Assembly (NCBI GenBank): GCA_026394555.1
Contig: JAPKXZ010000074.1
Span: 1-64,000, forward strand
Length of the DNA stretch: 64,000 nucleotides
Reading direction: 5' to 3'
Source of the DNA: Methanothrix sp.
Lineage (GTDB): Archaea > Halobacteriota > Methanosarcinia > Methanotrichales > Methanotrichaceae
The notes below the pieces were generated by a model. The model worked only from the letters and a program-made list of their open reading frames with translations, did no database searches and was not told the origin of the DNA. Positions within the stretch are counted from its first letter, which is position 1. Each line of letters starts with the position of its first letter. The position numbers and the translations under genes are program-made. Below, piece after piece: positions 54,730 to 63,769 of the stretch.

Positions 54730-55635
54730 TCATTGACCGGCTGATTCTTTTGCCGTATCTCGATAGGCTCTTCCCCTCAGTCCGAGGGTGCGAATGTTCA
54801 GGCTGGCATTGATGTCTCTGTCCATCTCCAGCCCACAATTAGGGCAAATATGGACTCTTTCTGCCAGCGTCTTAGGAACCATTATGCTGCATTGGGAGCA
54901 TTTCTGCGAAGTGTATCTCGCATCTACCAGTTCTACCACTTTGCCAGCCTTTGCAGCTTTGCTCTGAGTGAACTGAATTAGTTTGCCCCAAGCATGGTCT
55001 TGAATATGCTTTGCTAGATGGTGATTCTTGAGCATACCGGAAATATTAAGGCACTCAAATACAATTAGGTCGGCTGAATCTACGAGCATCTTGGATAATT
55101 GATGCAAGAACTCATCCCTATGGTGTTGAACATCTTGACTGATCTTAGCGACCTTCGCTTTGGCTTTCCGTCTATTGGCCGAACCCTTCTTTTTTCGAGA
55201 GAGGTTCCTTTGGGCTACTGAAAGCTTCTTTTCTGCCATGACGTAGTACCGTGGATATTCAACCGTCTCACCACCGGAAAGAGCAACCAGACTCTTCAAG
55301 CCCACATCTACACCAATAGCGGTCTTTGGCTCAATCGGAGATACATCTTCAACCTCGGATATCAAGATCGCATACCAGTGACCTAGATTATCCTTTTTGA
55401 TGGTGCTGGTCTTGATCTTGCCTTCAACTTCCCTATGCTTGAATATTCGGATAGAACCTATCTTGGAGAGCGTCAGCTTTGATCCGGCATAATCTCTAAG
55501 CTGAGTATCTCTACATCCTTTTTCTGCAATTGTATGCAAGATGTCTGATAGGTGAGTGGCGACCTCTCCGGCAAGTACAGGATGCCTATATTTAGGAATC
55601 CAAACTAGATGATAGTTTAGGTTATACTTATCCAT
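54730..55635 (-). CDS. tnpB: IS200/IS605 chimera: TnpA start joined to TnpB body
   Basis: A 301-residue ORF. Residues 1-40 (NYHLVWIPKYRHPVLAGEVA) are the start of an IS200-type Y1 transposase TnpA. From about residue 53 it is TnpB: KLTLSKIGSIRIFKHREVEGKIK, catalytic D110 in IGVDVGLKSL, E194 in VFECLNISG, zinc cysteines 246, 249, 264 and 267, and D274 in MDRDINASLN. The TnpA HUH motif and catalytic tyrosine and the TnpB N-terminal region are absent, so an in-frame deletion of a tnpA-tnpB pair is the simplest origin. The element is framed by two like hairpins. Confidence 0.85.
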   Translation of the reverse strand: MDKYNLNYHLVWIPKYRHPVLAGEVATHLSDILHTIAEKGCRDTQLRDYAGSKLTLSKIGSIRIFKHREVEGKIKTSTIKKDNLGHWYAILISEVEDVSPIEPKTAIGVDVGLKSLVALSGGETVEYPRYYVMAEKKLSVAQRNLSRKKKGSANRRKAKAKVAKISQDVQHHRDEFLHQLSKMLVDSADLIVFECLNISGMLKNHHLAKHIQDHAWGKLIQFTQSKAAKAGKVVELVDARYTSQKCSQCSIMVPKTLAERVHICPNCGLEMDRDINASLNIRTLGLRGRAYRDTAKESAGQ

Positions 55636-56156: not shown

Positions 56157-57119
56157 CTACACCTCCAGACAGCAGGCGGGGTCCGGCCCCAGGAAATCAC
56201 CCGTTTTTGCATAGGCCCGCGCCCGGCAGCCTCCGCAGGTCCCGGAAAAACTGCACCGTCCGCACTTTCCTTTAAGAACCCTATCTCGCAACGCCCGCAG
56301 CTCAGTGGCATTCTCCCATATCTCTATAAAATTCTTTTCCCTGATGTTCCCGACTCGCAGAGGAAAATAGCCGCAGGGATAGACATCGCCCTTTCGGGAG
56401 ACAAAGACGAAGCTTTTGCCCGCCAGGCAGCCGCCGGCGCGCCCCTTCCCGGGCCTGGCTATGCGAGCATACTGGGGTGCACAGGTGACCTGCACCTCCA
56501 GAGAGCGAAATTCTCGCTCCCGGTCGATCTCGATGAGAAGCTGCTCCTGCCGCTGTGGCGAGATGAGATCCGCCTCCCGGCCCCGGCCCGTGGCCACCAG
56601 GAAAAAGAAGTGCAGGGCACGAGCCCCCACTCTTTGGGCCAGATCGAAGATTGAAGCTACGTCGGACTCATTCTTGCTGGTGAGGGTGTTGTTGATCTGA
56701 AAATCGACCTTGCCGCAGAGGTTGTCTATTCCTTGCATGGCCGCTTGAAAGCTTCCCCTGCCGCGAATCAGATCATGCTTCTCAGGCGTTGCCCCGTCCA
56801 AGCTGATGCTGACTCGCGAGATGCCAGAGGCTGCAATCTCGTTCGCAACCTTTGCTGTGAGCAGCGTTCCGTTGCTGGCCAAAGAGACACGCATGCCCAA
56901 AGCGGTGCCATGACGCGCTATTTGGAAGATATCGGGCCGCAGCAAGGGCTCACCGCCGCTTAAGATAAGCATGGGCTCTAAGGAGGCAATGCTGTCTAAA
57001 AAAGAAAGCGCCTCCTTTGTGGAAAGCTCATCCGGATCGGGCAAAAAAGAAGCAGAGGCGCGGCAGTAGCCGCAGGACAGATTGCAGGCTGCCGTCACCT
57101 CCCAAGCAACAATCAGCAT
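56157..57119 (-). CDS. ahbD: Radical SAM heme synthase AhbD-like
   Basis: A 320-residue radical SAM/SPASM protein with LIVAWEVTAACNLSCGYCRAS (CxxxCxxC), LSGGEPLLRPDIF and C-terminal CGRCSFSGTCGGCRARAY. The WEVTxxCNLxCxxCR lead is typical of AhbD/NirJ-type enzymes; AhbD oxidatively decarboxylates Fe-coproporphyrin III to heme. The neighbouring siroheme decarboxylase subunit supports this. The ATG at 57119 shares a base with the asd stop (TGATG). Confidence 0.83.
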   Translation of the reverse strand: MLIVAWEVTAACNLSCGYCRASASFLPDPDELSTKEALSFLDSIASLEPMLILSGGEPLLRPDIFQIARHGTALGMRVSLASNGTLLTAKVANEIAASGISRVSISLDGATPEKHDLIRGRGSFQAAMQGIDNLCGKVDFQINNTLTSKNESDVASIFDLAQRVGARALHFFFLVATGRGREADLISPQRQEQLLIEIDREREFRSLEVQVTCAPQYARIARPGKGRAGGCLAGKSFVFVSRKGDVYPCGYFPLRVGNIREKNFIEIWENATELRALRDRVLKGKCGRCSFSGTCGGCRARAYAKTGDFLGPDPACCLEV

Positions 57120-58147
57120 CAAAGCAGGCCTTTTTTCACCAGCAATTCGGCATTGAGAATGCTGGCACCCGCTGCGCCACGCACGGTGTTGTGGCCCATG
57201 CAGATGAACCTGATTCCAGACCGGATCCGTCCCACGGAAACGGACATGCCGTTACCCCTGTCGCGATCGAGCCGGGGCTGAGGTCGATCGGGCTCATCCT
57301 TGACGATGATCGCCTTTTTGGGCGAGGTGGGCAGATCTCCCAGGCCCGCATCGAAGTTTTGCATGGCCTTCCTTACCTCCTCGGGCGTGGGATTGTCCCT
57401 CATGGTCACCCAGACAGCTTCCGTGTGCCCGTCCATGACCGGCACGCGATGGCAGCTGGCGCTTACGGAGAAATCCGCATACACGATTTTTTCGCCGTCA
57501 AAGCGCCCCAGGATCTTCTGCGGCTCTGTCTCCACCTTCTCCTCCTCGCCGCCGATGTAGGGAATGACGTTGCCAAGGATGGCCATGGAGGGCACACCCT
57601 CATAGCCTGCCCCACTTACGGCCTGCATGGAGGCCACATGCACGCTCTTGATACCGAACTTCATGAGCGGCTTTAGTGGCAGGGTGAACATGACCGTGGT
57701 ACAGTTGGGGTTAGTGGTGAGATACCCCTCCCACCCCCGCTTTTCTCGCTGCACTTTGATGAGATCCAGGTGGTCGTAATTGCACTCCGGTATGAGCAGA
57801 GGCACATCTTCCACCATGCGATAAGAGCTGGTATTGCTGGCTACCGCAAAGCCTGCCGCCGCGAAGGCCGGCTCAACGGTTTGGGCATCTGCCGCGGGAA
57901 GCGCGGAAAATACAATATCCGCATCTACTTCTCGCGGATCGACGTTGACCACGGTCATCTCCGCGATGTCGTCGGGAAGCTCACTTTCCAGGCGCCACTT
58001 GGCAGCGTCTTTGTACTTCTTGCCCGCGCTCCTCTCGGAAGCGGCTAGGCTCGTCAACTCAAACCAGGGATGGTTCTTCAATCCTTCAATGAAGCGCTGT
58101 CCCACGGCACCGGTGGCACCTAAGACGCCAGCTTTGATCTTGGCCAT
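57119..58147 (-). CDS. asd: Aspartate-semialdehyde dehydrogenase
   Basis: Asd reduces aspartyl phosphate to aspartate semialdehyde for lysine, threonine and methionine. The 342-residue protein has GVLGATGAVGQRFI, the catalytic cysteine in TTNPNCTTVMF, and the SCHRVPVMDGHTEAVWV stretch. I start it at the ATG at 58147 (MAKIKAGVLGATG); a TTG six bases upstream is also in frame. Its product feeds dapA at the left end of the window. Confidence 0.95.
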   Translation of the reverse strand: MAKIKAGVLGATGAVGQRFIEGLKNHPWFELTSLAASERSAGKKYKDAAKWRLESELPDDIAEMTVVNVDPREVDADIVFSALPAADAQTVEPAFAAAGFAVASNTSSYRMVEDVPLLIPECNYDHLDLIKVQREKRGWEGYLTTNPNCTTVMFTLPLKPLMKFGIKSVHVASMQAVSGAGYEGVPSMAILGNVIPYIGGEEEKVETEPQKILGRFDGEKIVYADFSVSASCHRVPVMDGHTEAVWVTMRDNPTPEEVRKAMQNFDAGLGDLPTSPKKAIIVKDEPDRPQPRLDRDRGNGMSVSVGRIRSGIRFICMGHNTVRGAAGASILNAELLVKKGLL

Positions 58148-58257: not shown

Positions 58258-58782
58258 TTACTCTCCTACACAGGATTTCTTCCGAACTCTGTAGCTTTTC
58301 GCGAATTCGCGATTAACCTCGACCACTTCCTCATTGAAGTGCTTGAGGCTTTCGGGGACATGCCCCAGCGCATCGGCCTTCTCCTGCGTATCAACCAGGG
58401 CGCCATGCGGCACGAACTTGCCGTCGGCAAGCTTCACACCAATGACCGTCGCCGCGTGGCCGACAAAGCACTTCTTGCCCAGAGTTGAGGCATGAACTAC
58501 AGAGTTGAAGCCCACAAAGCTCTCATCCTCGATCTTCATGGGTCCGTGAATTACGGCACCATGGGCGATAGATATCTTTTTTTCGAGTTGTATGGAGCTG
58601 CCCATCAGGCCGTGGAAGACAACGCCGTCCTGGATGTTGCACTTATCGCCGATGATGATGGGGTTGGCCTCGTCCGCCCGCAGGGATACGCACGGGCCCA
58701 CATAAACCTCCTCTCCGATGCGAACATCGCCGATAACCATAGCTGATTCGTCCACGTAAGCCGTTGCTGCAACCGTTGGCAT
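58258..58782 (-). CDS. Gamma-class carbonic anhydrase (CamH-like)
   Basis: A 174-residue left-handed beta-helix protein with hexapeptide repeats. Three putative metal ligands are H57 (VVFHGL), H74 and H79 (IAHGAVIHGP), with the family's 5-residue spacing between the last two. It lacks the acidic loop and signal peptide of the prototype Cam, so it is of the CamH type. In acetate-using methanogens carbonic anhydrase helps remove or supply CO2 outside or inside the cell. No leader peptide, so cytosolic. Confidence 0.85.
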   Translation of the reverse strand: MPTVAATAYVDESAMVIGDVRIGEEVYVGPCVSLRADEANPIIIGDKCNIQDGVVFHGLMGSSIQLEKKISIAHGAVIHGPMKIEDESFVGFNSVVHASTLGKKCFVGHAATVIGVKLADGKFVPHGALVDTQEKADALGHVPESLKHFNEEVVEVNREFAKSYRVRKKSCVGE

Positions 58783-58863
58783 GCATTCATTGCTGTTCCA
58801 TGATGTCTTGGGGTTGGCTTTAAGAATATTAGCACCACCTCCCCTGGCATTGGCCGTTCACCT

Positions 58864-59150
58864 TAAAAGAGATTGCCATAAACGATGATTTACAAAGGGA
58901 CTTATTCACTATTGTCGATCGCGATAGATAATCTAATTTAATCAAGGCAGCTTTTTTGGATTGGCGGGGTGAGCATCGAATACTAATGTAAATTAACTAC
59001 AGAATTTTTGTGATATGTATAAAATTATAATCTATAATCGCCATAATTGTTATAATTGCCGCTAAATTTAAATATATGTGAGACAAAATTGGGTCCAAGC
59101 CATTGAATAATTCTTCAAGGGCGATGAAGGGATACGGGGGGATTAATAGA
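58864..59150 (+). promoter_or_regulatory. Long conserved leader of OFA transporter gene 1
   Basis: A 280-base non-coding stretch almost repeated at 60562-60842. It includes a 25-base identical run (58908-58932) with the palindrome ATCGCGAT and a TATA box TTTAAATATAT at 59067-59077, then another conserved piece (GTCCAAGCCATTGAATAAT). The first part is upstream of the TATA box (an operator-like region), the last part would be transcribed leader. Confidence 0.7.
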
Positions 59151-59222
59151 AGTAAACTTATTATATTATATTAATTTTATGTATTGATTAAAAACACTCT
59201 GATATACGAAGGTTTGTAACTT

Positions 59223-60515
59223 ATGGCAGATGATGTGAAGATATTGGGCATGCCACCTGAATCAGGGCGATGGCTGCTGATTATTATTGGAACAATTATC
59301 GAGCTTTGTCTCGGCGCAGTGTATGCTTATAGTATTATTAGCGTTCCTTTGAAAAAGGTATTTACGGCTCCCGTCGCTGATGGAGGCTTTGGATTAACCG
59401 TTAGCGCCATGCAGATGTCGCTTCCTTACATCGCATCCCTGGCGTTCTTTGCCCTGACCATGCCATTGGTCGGCAAATACATTGAAAAATATGGACCGAG
59501 AAAAGTAGGAACGCTGGGCGGCGTCATCGTCGGCCTGGGCTGGATCTTGGGTTCCACAGCCACCTCTCCTACGATGCTTATGATTCTGTACGGCGTTATC
59601 GCCGGCATTGGCGTGGGCATCGCCTACAACTGTCCCATCACCACTGCAGCCAGATGGTTCCCTGACAAGCGCGGCCTGGCTGTGGGATTGACCCTTTTAG
59701 GGTTCGGATTCTCCGCATACATCACCGGCAAAATGTCGGAGATAATCTCTGCGAGCTTCGGCGGAGTTTTCGGCTCCATGCGCATCTTAGGCATAGCTTT
59801 TTTGATCATAATCGTGGTCCTCTCCATGTTCCTGGTCTTCCCACCCGCTGGCTGGACCCCCCGTGGCTGGAAACCGCCGGTAGCGGCTGCCGGAGGCAAG
59901 AAGACCGATTACACGAGAGATGAGATGTCAAAGAACAAGGCCTTCTATGGCCTCTGGATCTGCTATGTGATCGGTGCACTGGCCGGACTGATGGCCATCG
60001 GAGTTGCCAAGCCTGCTGGCCTGGAAGTGGCAGCAAATGCCATGATTGCAGAGGCTGACATAACCCAGAAACTAACGGATCTCACTTTGATCTTCGCACT
60101 CTGCAATGCCGTAGGCAGGCCGCTATTCGGCACTCTGACCGATAAGCTCACACCACCTAGGACGGCGATTCTGTCCTATGTGATCATCATCGCGGCTTCC
60201 CTGCTGATGTACACTAATCCGGCATCAATCACCATGTACACGGTTGCCTTCGCCTTGCTCTGGCTGTGCCTGGGCGGCTGGCTGGCCATAGCGCCGGCTA
60301 CAACCGCGAGCTACTTCGGCACCAAGGACTATGCCCGAAATTATGGCCTGGTCTACACCGCATATGGTGTCGGCGCCATCATTGGAAATTTAATGGCAGG
60401 AGCTGCCAAGGACATGCTGGGCGGCTATGTCAATGTCTTCCCATATGTGGCCGTGCTGGCAGCAGTGGGCATTGTCGTGGCCTATGTAATGGTAAAACCA
60501 CCAAATGCAGCTTAA
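59223..60515 (+). CDS. OFA-family MFS transporter 1
   Basis: A 430-residue MFS carrier with 12 membrane segments. The start GRWLLIIIGTIIELCLGAVYAYS and the WFPDKRGLAVGLTLLGFGFSAY motif mark the oxalate/formate antiporter (OFA) group. Relatives are abundant in acetoclastic methanogens; a monocarboxylate such as acetate is a possible substrate, not shown. Its near-duplicate follows in tandem at 60935. Confidence 0.88.
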   Translation: MADDVKILGMPPESGRWLLIIIGTIIELCLGAVYAYSIISVPLKKVFTAPVADGGFGLTVSAMQMSLPYIASLAFFALTMPLVGKYIEKYGPRKVGTLGGVIVGLGWILGSTATSPTMLMILYGVIAGIGVGIAYNCPITTAARWFPDKRGLAVGLTLLGFGFSAYITGKMSEIISASFGGVFGSMRILGIAFLIIIVVLSMFLVFPPAGWTPRGWKPPVAAAGGKKTDYTRDEMSKNKAFYGLWICYVIGALAGLMAIGVAKPAGLEVAANAMIAEADITQKLTDLTLIFALCNAVGRPLFGTLTDKLTPPRTAILSYVIIIAASLLMYTNPASITMYTVAFALLWLCLGGWLAIAPATTASYFGTKDYARNYGLVYTAYGVGAIIGNLMAGAAKDMLGGYVNVFPYVAVLAAVGIVVAYVMVKPPNAA

Positions 60516-60523
60516 ATAAAATT

Positions 60524-60540
60524 ATATTTTTTTTCTTATT
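60524..60540 (+). terminator. T-rich terminator after OFA gene 1
   Basis: A stretch of TTTTTTTT followed by CTTATT about ten bases after the stop codon suits archaeal termination, and separates the two OFA transcription units. Confidence 0.5.
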
Positions 60541-60561
60541 AGTATTTTGCATAGGGATTAT

Positions 60562-60842
60562 TTAAGAGATTGCCATTAACGATGATTAGCAAAGGACTTA
60601 TCTACTATTGTCGATCGCGATAGATAATTTTGCTCTATCAAGGCTGCTTTTTTGGATTGACCGGGCGTGCATCGAATACTAATGTAAATTGACCACGATA
60701 TTTTTGCGATATGTGTAATATTATAATCTATAATCGCTATAATTGCCGCCAAATTTAAATATATGGGAGATGAAATTAGGTCCAAGCCATTGAATAATAT
60801 CTCAAGGGTGAGGGAGGGGATAAGGAGGGATCTAATAAAAAT
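60562..60842 (+). promoter_or_regulatory. Long conserved leader of OFA transporter gene 2
   Basis: Second copy of the leader at 58864-59150. The identical 25-base run is at 60604-60628, the TATA box TTTAAATATAT at 60754-60764. Changes are mostly scattered substitutions and a few small gaps. An apparent minus-strand frame (60576-60917) over this area is a by-product of the AT-rich sequence. Confidence 0.7.
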
Positions 60843-60934
60843 AGACTCATGGAAACTTTCATCCTTAATGCATATTATATTTATTGAATGTATTGAATGA
60901 GAATAAATCGTTATCATCGAAAGGTGTTAAACTT

Positions 60935-62260
60935 ATGGCTGGAAATTCAGCATCACAGGAACCGCCCGGCGGGCGGTGGATGATGGTAGTAGTAGGCATC
61001 ATAATTCAGCTTTGTCTGGGTGCCATTTATGCTTACGGAGCAGTGAGGGGTGACATATCAGGTTACTTCAAGTCCATAATGGCCATAGCAGACCCGGCCA
61101 CAAAAGGCCCAAGTGCATTTGATATGACCTGGCCTTTTATCACATTTCTGGCATTGTTTGCGTTAACAATGCCGCTGGCTGGGCCTTACATCCAGAAGAT
61201 GGGCCCCAAGAAGGTAAGTATGATTGGTGGAGCGCTCTGCGGCCTGGGTTGGCTAGCGGCCTCGTATGCTACTTCGCCTTCAATGCTCATTCCATTATAT
61301 GGCATTATCGGCGGATTGGGCGTAGGCATAGCTTACGGCGTGCCAATCGCGGTATCGGCGCAATGGTTCCCGGATAAACGCGGCCTTGCCGTGGGACTCA
61401 CTGTGCTGGGCTTCGGCTTCTCTTCCGCCGTGATCTCATATGCCACGCTATTCATGAAATCGGCGGGCCTCCAAATAATGAACATCCTGCAGGTCTATGG
61501 TATCGCATTCATCATCATCACAGTAGTCGCATCTATGTTCCTGAGGTTCCCGCCAACTGGCTGGAAACCGACCGGCTGGGCCCCACCAACTCCTGTGGCC
61601 GGAGCTGCCCAGAAGGTTGACTTCATGCGAAGCGAGATGACCAAGACCGGAACCTTCAAGGGTCTCTGGCTATGTTATACCATCGGAGCTCTAGCCGGGC
61701 TGACCGCCATAGGAATAGTCGGACCGGTAGGCAAAGAAGTAATGACAAATGCCGGCATGAGTGCAGCAGCATCGACTGCTCTGGTATTCCAACTGATCCT
61801 TCCCTTCGCCATATTCAACGGACTGGGAAGACCGATCTTCGGCACTCTGACGGATAAGCTGACCCCAAAGAATGCGGCAATGCTTACTTATGTGCTCATA
61901 ATAGGGGCATGCTTGCTGATGTACTCGAGCTATTCCTCTGTTCTTGCATTCGAGATCAGCTTCGCCATACTCTGGGGATGCCTAGGTGCCTGGCTGGCTA
62001 TAGCGCCAACCGCCACAGCAAGCTTCTTTGGAATGAAAGACAACGCCAAGAACTACGGACTGGTCTTCACAGCCTATGGTGTTGGAGCGGTGGTCGGAGG
62101 CATTATCGCGGCTGAGATCGCAGCCACTACTAAGGTCGCAGCCGGCGCTACATTCCTGGATGCTTATAGGCCGTTTTTCCTGGTTGTAGCTGCCTTGGCT
62201 GCAATAGGACTTGTCGTGGCCTTCATGCTATTGAAGCCGCCAGTCAAGAAAACCGCATAG
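60935..62260 (+). CDS. OFA-family MFS transporter 2
   Basis: A 441-residue MFS carrier clearly paralogous to the gene at 59223: GGRWMMVVVGIIIQLCLGAIYAYG, WFPDKRGLAVGLTVLGFGFSS, and a matching C-terminal YGLVFTAYGVGAVVGG. I place the start at the ATG at 60935, preceded by AACTT as in copy 1; a longer frame from 60884 has no parallel. Extra residues before the last helices (TTKVAAGATFLDAYR) are specific to this copy. Confidence 0.88.
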   Translation: MAGNSASQEPPGGRWMMVVVGIIIQLCLGAIYAYGAVRGDISGYFKSIMAIADPATKGPSAFDMTWPFITFLALFALTMPLAGPYIQKMGPKKVSMIGGALCGLGWLAASYATSPSMLIPLYGIIGGLGVGIAYGVPIAVSAQWFPDKRGLAVGLTVLGFGFSSAVISYATLFMKSAGLQIMNILQVYGIAFIIITVVASMFLRFPPTGWKPTGWAPPTPVAGAAQKVDFMRSEMTKTGTFKGLWLCYTIGALAGLTAIGIVGPVGKEVMTNAGMSAAASTALVFQLILPFAIFNGLGRPIFGTLTDKLTPKNAAMLTYVLIIGACLLMYSSYSSVLAFEISFAILWGCLGAWLAIAPTATASFFGMKDNAKNYGLVFTAYGVGAVVGGIIAAEIAATTKVAAGATFLDAYRPFFLVVAALAAIGLVVAFMLLKPPVKKTA

Positions 62261-62362: not shown

Positions 62363-63769
62363 TCAACGGTATTCCGAGAGCTTGGTCTGCGCTGCCATAC
62401 ACTTCTCGCCCGGTATCTCCACAGGATACAGTCCGGTCAGACAGCCCATGCAAAGGTTCTCCTTGGGTATGCCCACTGCATCCACCAGGCCCTTGTGGCT
62501 CACGTATCCCAGGGAATCGGCATTGATCACCGCTTCCACGCCAGCTACGGTCTTGTAGGCGGCAATCAGCTCCTCGCGACTGGCCATGTCGATGCCCAGA
62601 TAGCAGGGCGCCATGATGGGCGGGCTGCCTATGCGCACGTGCACCTTTTCGGCCCCGGCCTTTCGGACCATGTCCACGATCCGGCGGCTGGTGGTACCGC
62701 GCACGATGGAGTCGTCCACCAAGACCAGCTTATGTCCTTCGATATTGGGCCGGATGGTATTCATCTTCAGGCGGACAGCCGTCTCTCGCATGTTCTGATC
62801 GGGCATGATGAAGGTTCGGCCGATGTAGCGGTTCTTCATCAGGCACTCCCGGTAGCTGATCCCTGAGTACTGGTGGTAGCCTACAGCCAGAGTAATCCCT
62901 GAGTCGGGAATGGGCGTGACGGTGTCCGCATCAGCCGGATGCTCGCGGGCTAAATTGGCTCCGATGTTCACCCGCACCTCGTAAATCAGGCGACCGTCCA
63001 TGATGCTGTCCGGCCGGGCGAAGTAAATGTACTCGAATATGCAGTGCGCCTGATGGGGGAGATGGGCCAGTTGATACGACTTCATCTCGCCGTGCCTGAT
63101 AACCACCAGCTCGCCGGGCATAACATCGCGAATAAGCCGTCCATTCAGAGTATCTATGGCGGCACTCTCCGAGGCCACCATAATACCGGAATCGATCTCG
63201 CCTATGCACAGGGGCTTTATGCCCAGAGGGTCGCGCACGGCGAGGACTGTGTCCCCCCAGAGAAAGACAAGCGAGTAGGAGCCCACTAGCTTACGCATCA
63301 GGGCCCGAACGGCTTCCTGCAGATCATAGCGCAGAAGCTCTTTTACAAAAAGGTGAGCTATAACCTCGGTGTCCGAGGTAGAATAGAAGATGTCTCCTGC
63401 CTGCTCCAGGTTCTCCCGGAGCTGGCAGGAATTCACCAGATTACCATTATGAGCTATGGCAATAGCTCCATCTTTGAATTTTACCAGCAGAGGCTGGCTG
63501 TTTTCTATGCACGATCGGCCGGACGTGGGATATCGGACATGACCGATGCCCACCTGACCGCGCAGCAGCGCGATTTGGGCATCGTCGAATACCTCGGAGA
63601 CAAGGCCCATGCCCCGATGGGTGCGTATGGCCTTGCCGTCATGCACCGATATGCCGGCTGCCTCTTGTCCCCGGTGTTGCAGGGCATAGAGGGCATAGTA
63701 AATGGATTTAGCTACATTATTGCCCGACTCATTGAAGGAAATCCCGACAACGCCGCAGGCATCGTGCAA
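62363..63769 (-). CDS. purF: Amidophosphoribosyltransferase
   Basis: PurF makes phosphoribosylamine from PRPP and glutamine. The 468-residue protein begins HDACGVVGISFNESG, with the Ntn nucleophile cysteine at residue 5, so a short propeptide is removed. Glutaminase motifs HVRYPTSG and NGNLVNS, and the PRPP-binding VLVDDSIVRGTTSRRIV follow. It starts with TTG at 63769, ten bases after the rpl37e stop, behind AGGGG, so the two genes form a unit. Confidence 0.95.
   Translation of the reverse strand: MHDACGVVGISFNESGNNVAKSIYYALYALQHRGQEAAGISVHDGKAIRTHRGMGLVSEVFDDAQIALLRGQVGIGHVRYPTSGRSCIENSQPLLVKFKDGAIAIAHNGNLVNSCQLRENLEQAGDIFYSTSDTEVIAHLFVKELLRYDLQEAVRALMRKLVGSYSLVFLWGDTVLAVRDPLGIKPLCIGEIDSGIMVASESAAIDTLNGRLIRDVMPGELVVIRHGEMKSYQLAHLPHQAHCIFEYIYFARPDSIMDGRLIYEVRVNIGANLAREHPADADTVTPIPDSGITLAVGYHQYSGISYRECLMKNRYIGRTFIMPDQNMRETAVRLKMNTIRPNIEGHKLVLVDDSIVRGTTSRRIVDMVRKAGAEKVHVRIGSPPIMAPCYLGIDMASREELIAAYKTVAGVEAVINADSLGYVSHKGLVDAVGIPKENLCMGCLTGLYPVEIPGEKCMAAQTKLSEYR

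Follow-up and report, generated by a model that had tools for sequence, protein, structure and literature searches.

Copies of one control region precede two distantly related monocarboxylate-type transporters at the carbonic anhydrase locus of a Methanothrix genome

Archaea of the genus Methanothrix live on acetate and are the source of much of the methane that comes from digesters and wetlands; to our knowledge, how they take up acetate when it is scarce is not well defined. Growth on acetate only has been described for this genus (PMC12918732). In Methanotrichaceae such as M. harundinacea and Methanocrinis, the genes encoding the carbonic anhydrase Cam and AceP are clustered (PMC10598746). 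A role of Cam in aiding acetate-proton symport has been suggested, as has a Cam/AceP partnership in Methanosarcina (PMC7399021).

The window analysed here, a 64,000-nucleotide stretch of a Methanothrix genome (G000) with Methanothrix/Methanosaeta assemblies as its nearest named relatives, contains a cam gene of gamma class (58258..58827, minus strand), which is divergent from the gene of an MFS monocarboxylate-type transporter of the SfMCT/oxalate-formate superfamily (transporter A, A-type, 430 aa; 59223..60515, plus strand). A second transporter gene of the same superfamily (transporter B, B-type, 441 aa; 60935..62260, plus strand) follows in tandem. The order of genes at the locus is asd, cam, leader, transporter(s), purF, with the aspartate-semialdehyde dehydrogenase gene asd (57119..58147, minus strand; included in the reference tree) and the amidophosphoribosyltransferase gene purF (62363..63769, minus strand; on the far side of the transporters) as syntenic flanks. 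This order is conserved genus-wide in Methanothrix and in two other genera of the family, usually with one transporter, and among the compared genomes two transporters at the cam locus are found only in G000 and its sister genome G021. The leader, that is the intergenic region between cam and the transporter gene, is found genus-wide and in relatives.

The true start of cam (58825-58827, minus strand) lies 15 codons 5' of the listed ATG. The start codon is ATT in this genome and ATG in 24 of 24 compared relatives (MLKANPKTSWN...); here, either a rare start codon is used, the protein is shorter, or the sequence contains an error. Methanothrix cam has only this 15-residue extension, in which a signal peptide is not evident. 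Elsewhere in the window, an open reading frame on the minus strand (54730-55635) joins the N-terminal 39 residues of an IS200-type Y1 transposase to the C-terminal portion of a TnpB (OrfB_IS605 and a Cas12f1-like zinc domain), and is apparently an IS605 element with an internal in-frame deletion.

The best local alignment of leader A (58867-59161) with leader B (60564-60850) comprises 248 matches, 35 mismatches and 16 gap columns, so that 248 of 283 ungapped positions (87.6%) are identical, and its score of 335 compares with a maximum of 36 in 300 shuffles. The original observation of near-identical leaders is borne out, and more strongly than it was put. The 25-base identical run (ACTATTGTCGATCGCGATAGATAAT) with the palindrome ATCGCGAT inside it is present in both leaders, as is the common TATA box AAATTTAAATATATG. 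The leaders had been judged at least as similar as the coding regions; in fact they exceed them by far, as the two transporter genes are identical at 57.8% of nucleotides, 52% of amino acids and 37.5% of fourfold sites (dS ~2.0, NG86). The proposed comparison of leader identity with that at synonymous sites thus comes out clearly in favour of the leaders. No tract of high identity that would hint at conversion was found between the coding sequences in 40-codon windows, and a genome-wide search returned exactly two copies of the leader.

The alignment of 26 leader regions, from which all conservation means given here derive, allowed us to divide the leader into several parts. Immediately upstream of cam is a block (TTAAAAGAGATTGCCAT; 58866..58887, minus strand; genus mean identity 0.88) that is a probable promoter/5'UTR element of cam and is kept as far as other genera and Methanosarcina. 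The idea that this block is coding is not supported, since indels break its frame in relatives, e.g., in G001. Leader B (60564..60850, plus strand) begins inside the corresponding block, the cam coding fossil having been lost there. Next to the block is a fast-drifting spacer (58904..59005), which contains the ATCGCGAT palindrome; although present in both leaders, the palindrome is a poor operator candidate and was rejected as such, as most relatives do not have it, nor does the A copy of the sister genome. Beyond the spacer lies an operator-like element with repeated ATAAT motifs (also written TATAATCTATAATCGC; genus mean 0.82), which in copy A reads ATTATAATCTATAATCGC(CATAATTGT)TATAATTGCC (59022..59052, plus strand), with one 9-bp unit more than in copy B (TATAATCTATAATCGCTATAATTGCC; 60722..60747, plus strand). 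It is followed by the BRE/TATA box (CCGCTAAATTTAAATATATG, 59058..59080, and CCAAATTTAAATATATGG, 60749..60766, both on the plus strand; genus mean 0.89), in which AAATTTAAATATATG aligns in 26 of 26 regions with few changes and holds a constant position ahead of the gene, as expected of an archaeal BRE/TATA promoter. The consensus of the promoter and terminator scan is bacterial and thus uninformative for this archaeal locus.

The 5'UTR of transporter A, with a transcription start predicted from the TATA box, begins with a conserved part (59097..59147, plus strand) made of a hairpin (59099-59122) and a purine-rich stretch, and ends with a type-specific part (59148..59222, plus strand) that likely moves with the gene cassette; the genus mean is 0.73 for the first 50 nt and 0.48 for the type-specific end. 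In leader B, the putative hairpin segment is at 60786..60809 (plus strand), in the predicted 5'UTR. The operator-like element and BRE/TATA are indeed under selection as regulatory DNA, with identities across the genus from 0.82 (operator) to 0.89 (BRE/TATA) against 0.49 at fourfold sites. No operator copy beyond the two leaders was found in a search of the same genome, and none is shared with AceP genes of other species (30 AceP loci, up to 4 mismatches). In the genome G012, the operator/TATA/UTR module and a transporter gene are located on another contig, away from cam, which indicates that this module belongs to the transporter; the operator-like element is there in tandem upstream of the relocated gene, as two copies of AATATAATGTATAATAGCAATGAATT and a partial one (L085:150-235). 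In leader A of G021 (L042:7040-7077), most of the conserved 5'UTR has been lost, hairpin and purine-rich stretch included, and the gene downstream is intact.

Results of our sliding analysis indicate that the leader is a mosaic at the sequence level. Leader distances track those of flanking genes (rho ~0.5-0.6) and not those of the transporter (~0) until ~59140, a zone that covers the greater part of the spacer, the TATA region and the first part of the UTR, and in the last 60 to 25 nt they track the transporter (rho 0.46-0.48). Leader B resembles the leader of G001, but its last 45 nt (60890..60934, plus strand; 93% identical to G009 and G013) and its gene match the B-type units of other species, which places a recombination breakpoint, as read from these alignments, upstream of 60890..60934 and inside the 5'UTR. 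The similarity between the G013 and B units runs shortly past the stop codon and then ends. In the case of G001 and G002, the UTR ends are alike and the transporter types differ, so the breakpoints appear to vary.

The transporter tree conflicts with that of the flanking genes. In the former, A-type transporters are those of G000 (A), G021 (A), G024, G002, G003, G020 and G019; B-type those of G000 (B), G021 (B), G013 and G009; C-type those of G001 and G010; and D-type those of G007, G018, G023, G012, G004, G017 and G025, with further types beyond D. In the flank tree, G007 groups with G020 and G019, G003 with G017 and G025, and G000/G021 are placed near G001/G010. The transporter tree rejects three forced flank clades (AU p 2e-65 to 2e-80), and the flank tree, which was built from neighbouring genes of one locus and has short rows (G007, G022, Msarc) and several weak nodes, rejects two forced transporter types (AU p<1e-50). 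On the flank tree, the transporter type changes at least 10 times, where 7 types need a minimum of 6 changes. Most of the sequences are metagenome-assembled, and near-identical leaders could cause chimeric joins; against this, the tandem recurs in G021, which was assembled separately, and several assemblies share each transporter type. A contig binned as Candidatus Aenigmatarchaeota (L040:4001-5281) encodes a transporter 67% identical to A, possibly owing to misbinning or transfer.

The origin of the tandem is suggested by a fossil in the sister genome. Directly upstream of leader B, G021 retains a 42-codon cam remnant, which by alignment score is nearest to cam of G001 (84%), then to that of G010 (83%), and 80% identical to its own cam. 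In G000 the remnant is gone and the cam-proximal block is kept at leader B. The second unit thus appears to have been a piece comprising part of cam, the leader and a transporter gene. As leader B is nearest to that of G001 (0.93) and yet grouping A with B as one clade is compatible with the data (AU p 0.106), duplication in the own lineage and import from a neighbour are inseparable, and either may have given rise to the leader B unit.

We consider it probable that a unit of partial cam, promoter and transporter gene was duplicated or imported, and that transporter cassettes were exchanged through crossovers in the 5'UTR. Both leaders would then be copies of one divergent region, in which the cam promoter block, spacer, operator, BRE/TATA and 5'UTR lie between cam on one side and the transporter gene on the other. 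The second such unit would have been added in tandem at about the time of the split between this species and its closest relatives, either as a duplicate or as an import from a G001-like neighbour, and its cam part would have decayed afterwards. As a separate process, homologous recombination may repeatedly have moved the transporter gene, together with the last 45-75 nt of the 5'UTR, from one Methanothrix lineage to another, through crossovers within the conserved 5'UTR and just past the stop codon, so that an old promoter would by now drive transporter alleles that differ widely (types A to F). Two distantly related transporters behind copies of one control region are what would be expected if the promoter was duplicated or imported while gene versions were swapped beneath it. 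Both transporters, and cam with them, would be under the same operator/TATA, and one regulator presumably controls both copies via the operator-like element.

Selection on an operator had been proposed as a source of the similarity, and the conservation of the operator, TATA and UTR start across the genus (0.73-0.89 vs. 0.49 at fourfold sites), extending in part to Methanosarcina, shows that this proposal holds for the regulatory DNA itself. It does not account for the match between A and B, as the two leaders are equally alike in the neutral spacer. The spacer drifts at the pace of fourfold sites in the genus (means of 0.46 and 0.49, respectively) and is nevertheless at 0.83 between A and B, about equal to the 0.84 between the spacers of G000 and G001 and above the fourfold-site identity of the latter pair (0.69; 0.81 for G000 and G021). 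The leaders therefore share a recent ancestor. The spacer of B is at 0.89 to that of G001 and only at 0.49 and 0.40 to those of G013 and G009, though both carry a B-type transporter, and hence leaders A and B parted long after genes A and B. Purifying selection on a promoter common to two old paralogues, with no recent shared ancestry, is disfavoured also by the cam fossil of G021, and we regard this reading as quite unlikely. A simple recent tandem duplication, followed by fast divergence of the coding part under selection, would fit the tandem order and the common leader. It is refuted by the transporter tree and so can hardly be true: there, B is joined by the genes of G013/G009 and A by those of G024/G020/G019/G002/G003, in two distinct and well-supported clades, and an A+B grouping is rejected (AU p 5e-6).

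Gene conversion that keeps both leaders alike within a genome, another explanation offered originally, would suit a tandem whose copies are 1.7 kb apart and resemble each other in non-coding DNA only. However, leaders of the same copy are closer between G000 and G021 (A vs. A 0.93, B vs. B 0.92) than A and B are within a genome (0.82-0.85), so that conversion since these two genomes split is not supported; an older event may have occurred, and on the whole this explanation is unlikely. A leader acting as a structured RNA (a riboswitch or attenuator) that senses a metabolite is very improbable. Of the suggestion of a structured leader, one small hairpin near the expected transcript start is left as a lead: 89.6% of its pairs are kept and 3 of 8 show compensatory changes, in a comparison whose shuffle control overstates support when sequences are related. 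The leaders match no Rfam family and fold no better than shuffles (z ~0), the similarity of A and B reaches far upstream of the TATA box, and copy A of G021 is devoid of the UTR segment with the hairpin. The duplicated or imported promoter unit with exchanged transporter cassettes thus stays our preferred reading.

By curated cut-offs, A and B are not oxalate/formate antiporters, as both score far below those of TIGR04259 (178.6 and 149.2; cut-off 335 bits) and TIGR00890 (201.0 and 165.4; cut-off 374.85 bits). In the L-lactate SfMCT model NF049980 (cut-off 320 bits), A is above (351.3) and B below (304.0) the threshold. Of Arg272 and Lys355, which we take to be the two positive pocket residues of the oxalate/formate antiporter OxlT, the position of the former is kept as Arg in all transporters, and that of the latter is Tyr in A, B and nearly all cam-linked relatives. 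No match to AceP (PF01184) was found anywhere in G000 (96.5% complete), G021 or G018 (all at least 93% complete), as far as these assemblies reach, and no ActP-type acetate symporter was recognised, the sodium/solute symporters (SSF) of the genome being far below ActP cut-offs. With AceP absent, no ActP recognised, and a suggested role of Cam in acetate symport, acetate or a similar monocarboxylate is our best guess, somewhat better than an even one, for the cargo, which would most likely be acetate carried by proton symport. Against acetate, most other Methanothrix species hold AceP alongside the cam-linked transporter. A link of this transporter to acetate in Methanothrix was not found in the searched literature. 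In the presumed Methanosarcina sp. Ant1 (G064), cam, a transporter of the cam-linked type and AceP occur together (L039:2798-5296); its cam/transporter unit, with a Methanothrix-like operator and proteins 75-76% identical, was likely transferred between the two families.

If the reading set out above is true, the acetate carrier of some lineages is an MFS protein unrelated to AceP, whose gene passes from species to species while the promoter ahead of it is conserved, and this protein offers a concrete candidate explanation of why Methanothrix species differ in their affinity for acetate. More tentatively, and with somewhat less than an even chance of being right, the cam-linked promoter may be a fixed landing site for repeatedly swapped carriers of the SfMCT kind, which in the clade that includes this genome would have taken over from AceP as sole importers of acetate, the tandem providing two carriers with different properties under one control.

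Exchange of alleles or cassettes at a fixed locus, via homologous recombination in shared flanks, is known from bacterial surface and transporter loci. The Methanothrix locus resembles these in its conserved flanks and promoter, the divergent swapped gene and crossovers in a shared flank, and differs from them in that it serves core metabolism in an archaeon obligately dependent on acetate and has one of its crossover zones in the 5'UTR. As to the carriers themselves, the closest solved structures are those of SfMCT (PDB 6g9x, 6hcl), with E-values of 1.5e-43 and 3e-41, and the similarity to OxlT (PDB 8hpj) concerns the conserved Arg, whereas the Tyr in place of Lys355 and the low antiporter scores set the cam-linked copies apart. 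A transporter near cam in an aceticlastic methanogen is reminiscent of the AceP clusters (PMC10598746); in our comparison, several g9 genomes have AceP at ~1.5 kb from cam. At the present locus, by contrast, the gene directly divergent from cam encodes an unrelated MFS protein, in a genome in which AceP is absent. The pairing of a carbonic anhydrase with a monocarboxylate-type carrier is likewise shared with the Methanosarcina Cam/AceP partnership and with the mammalian pair of carbonic anhydrase and lactate transporter (PMC7399021), although in Methanothrix the link is known from the genome alone.
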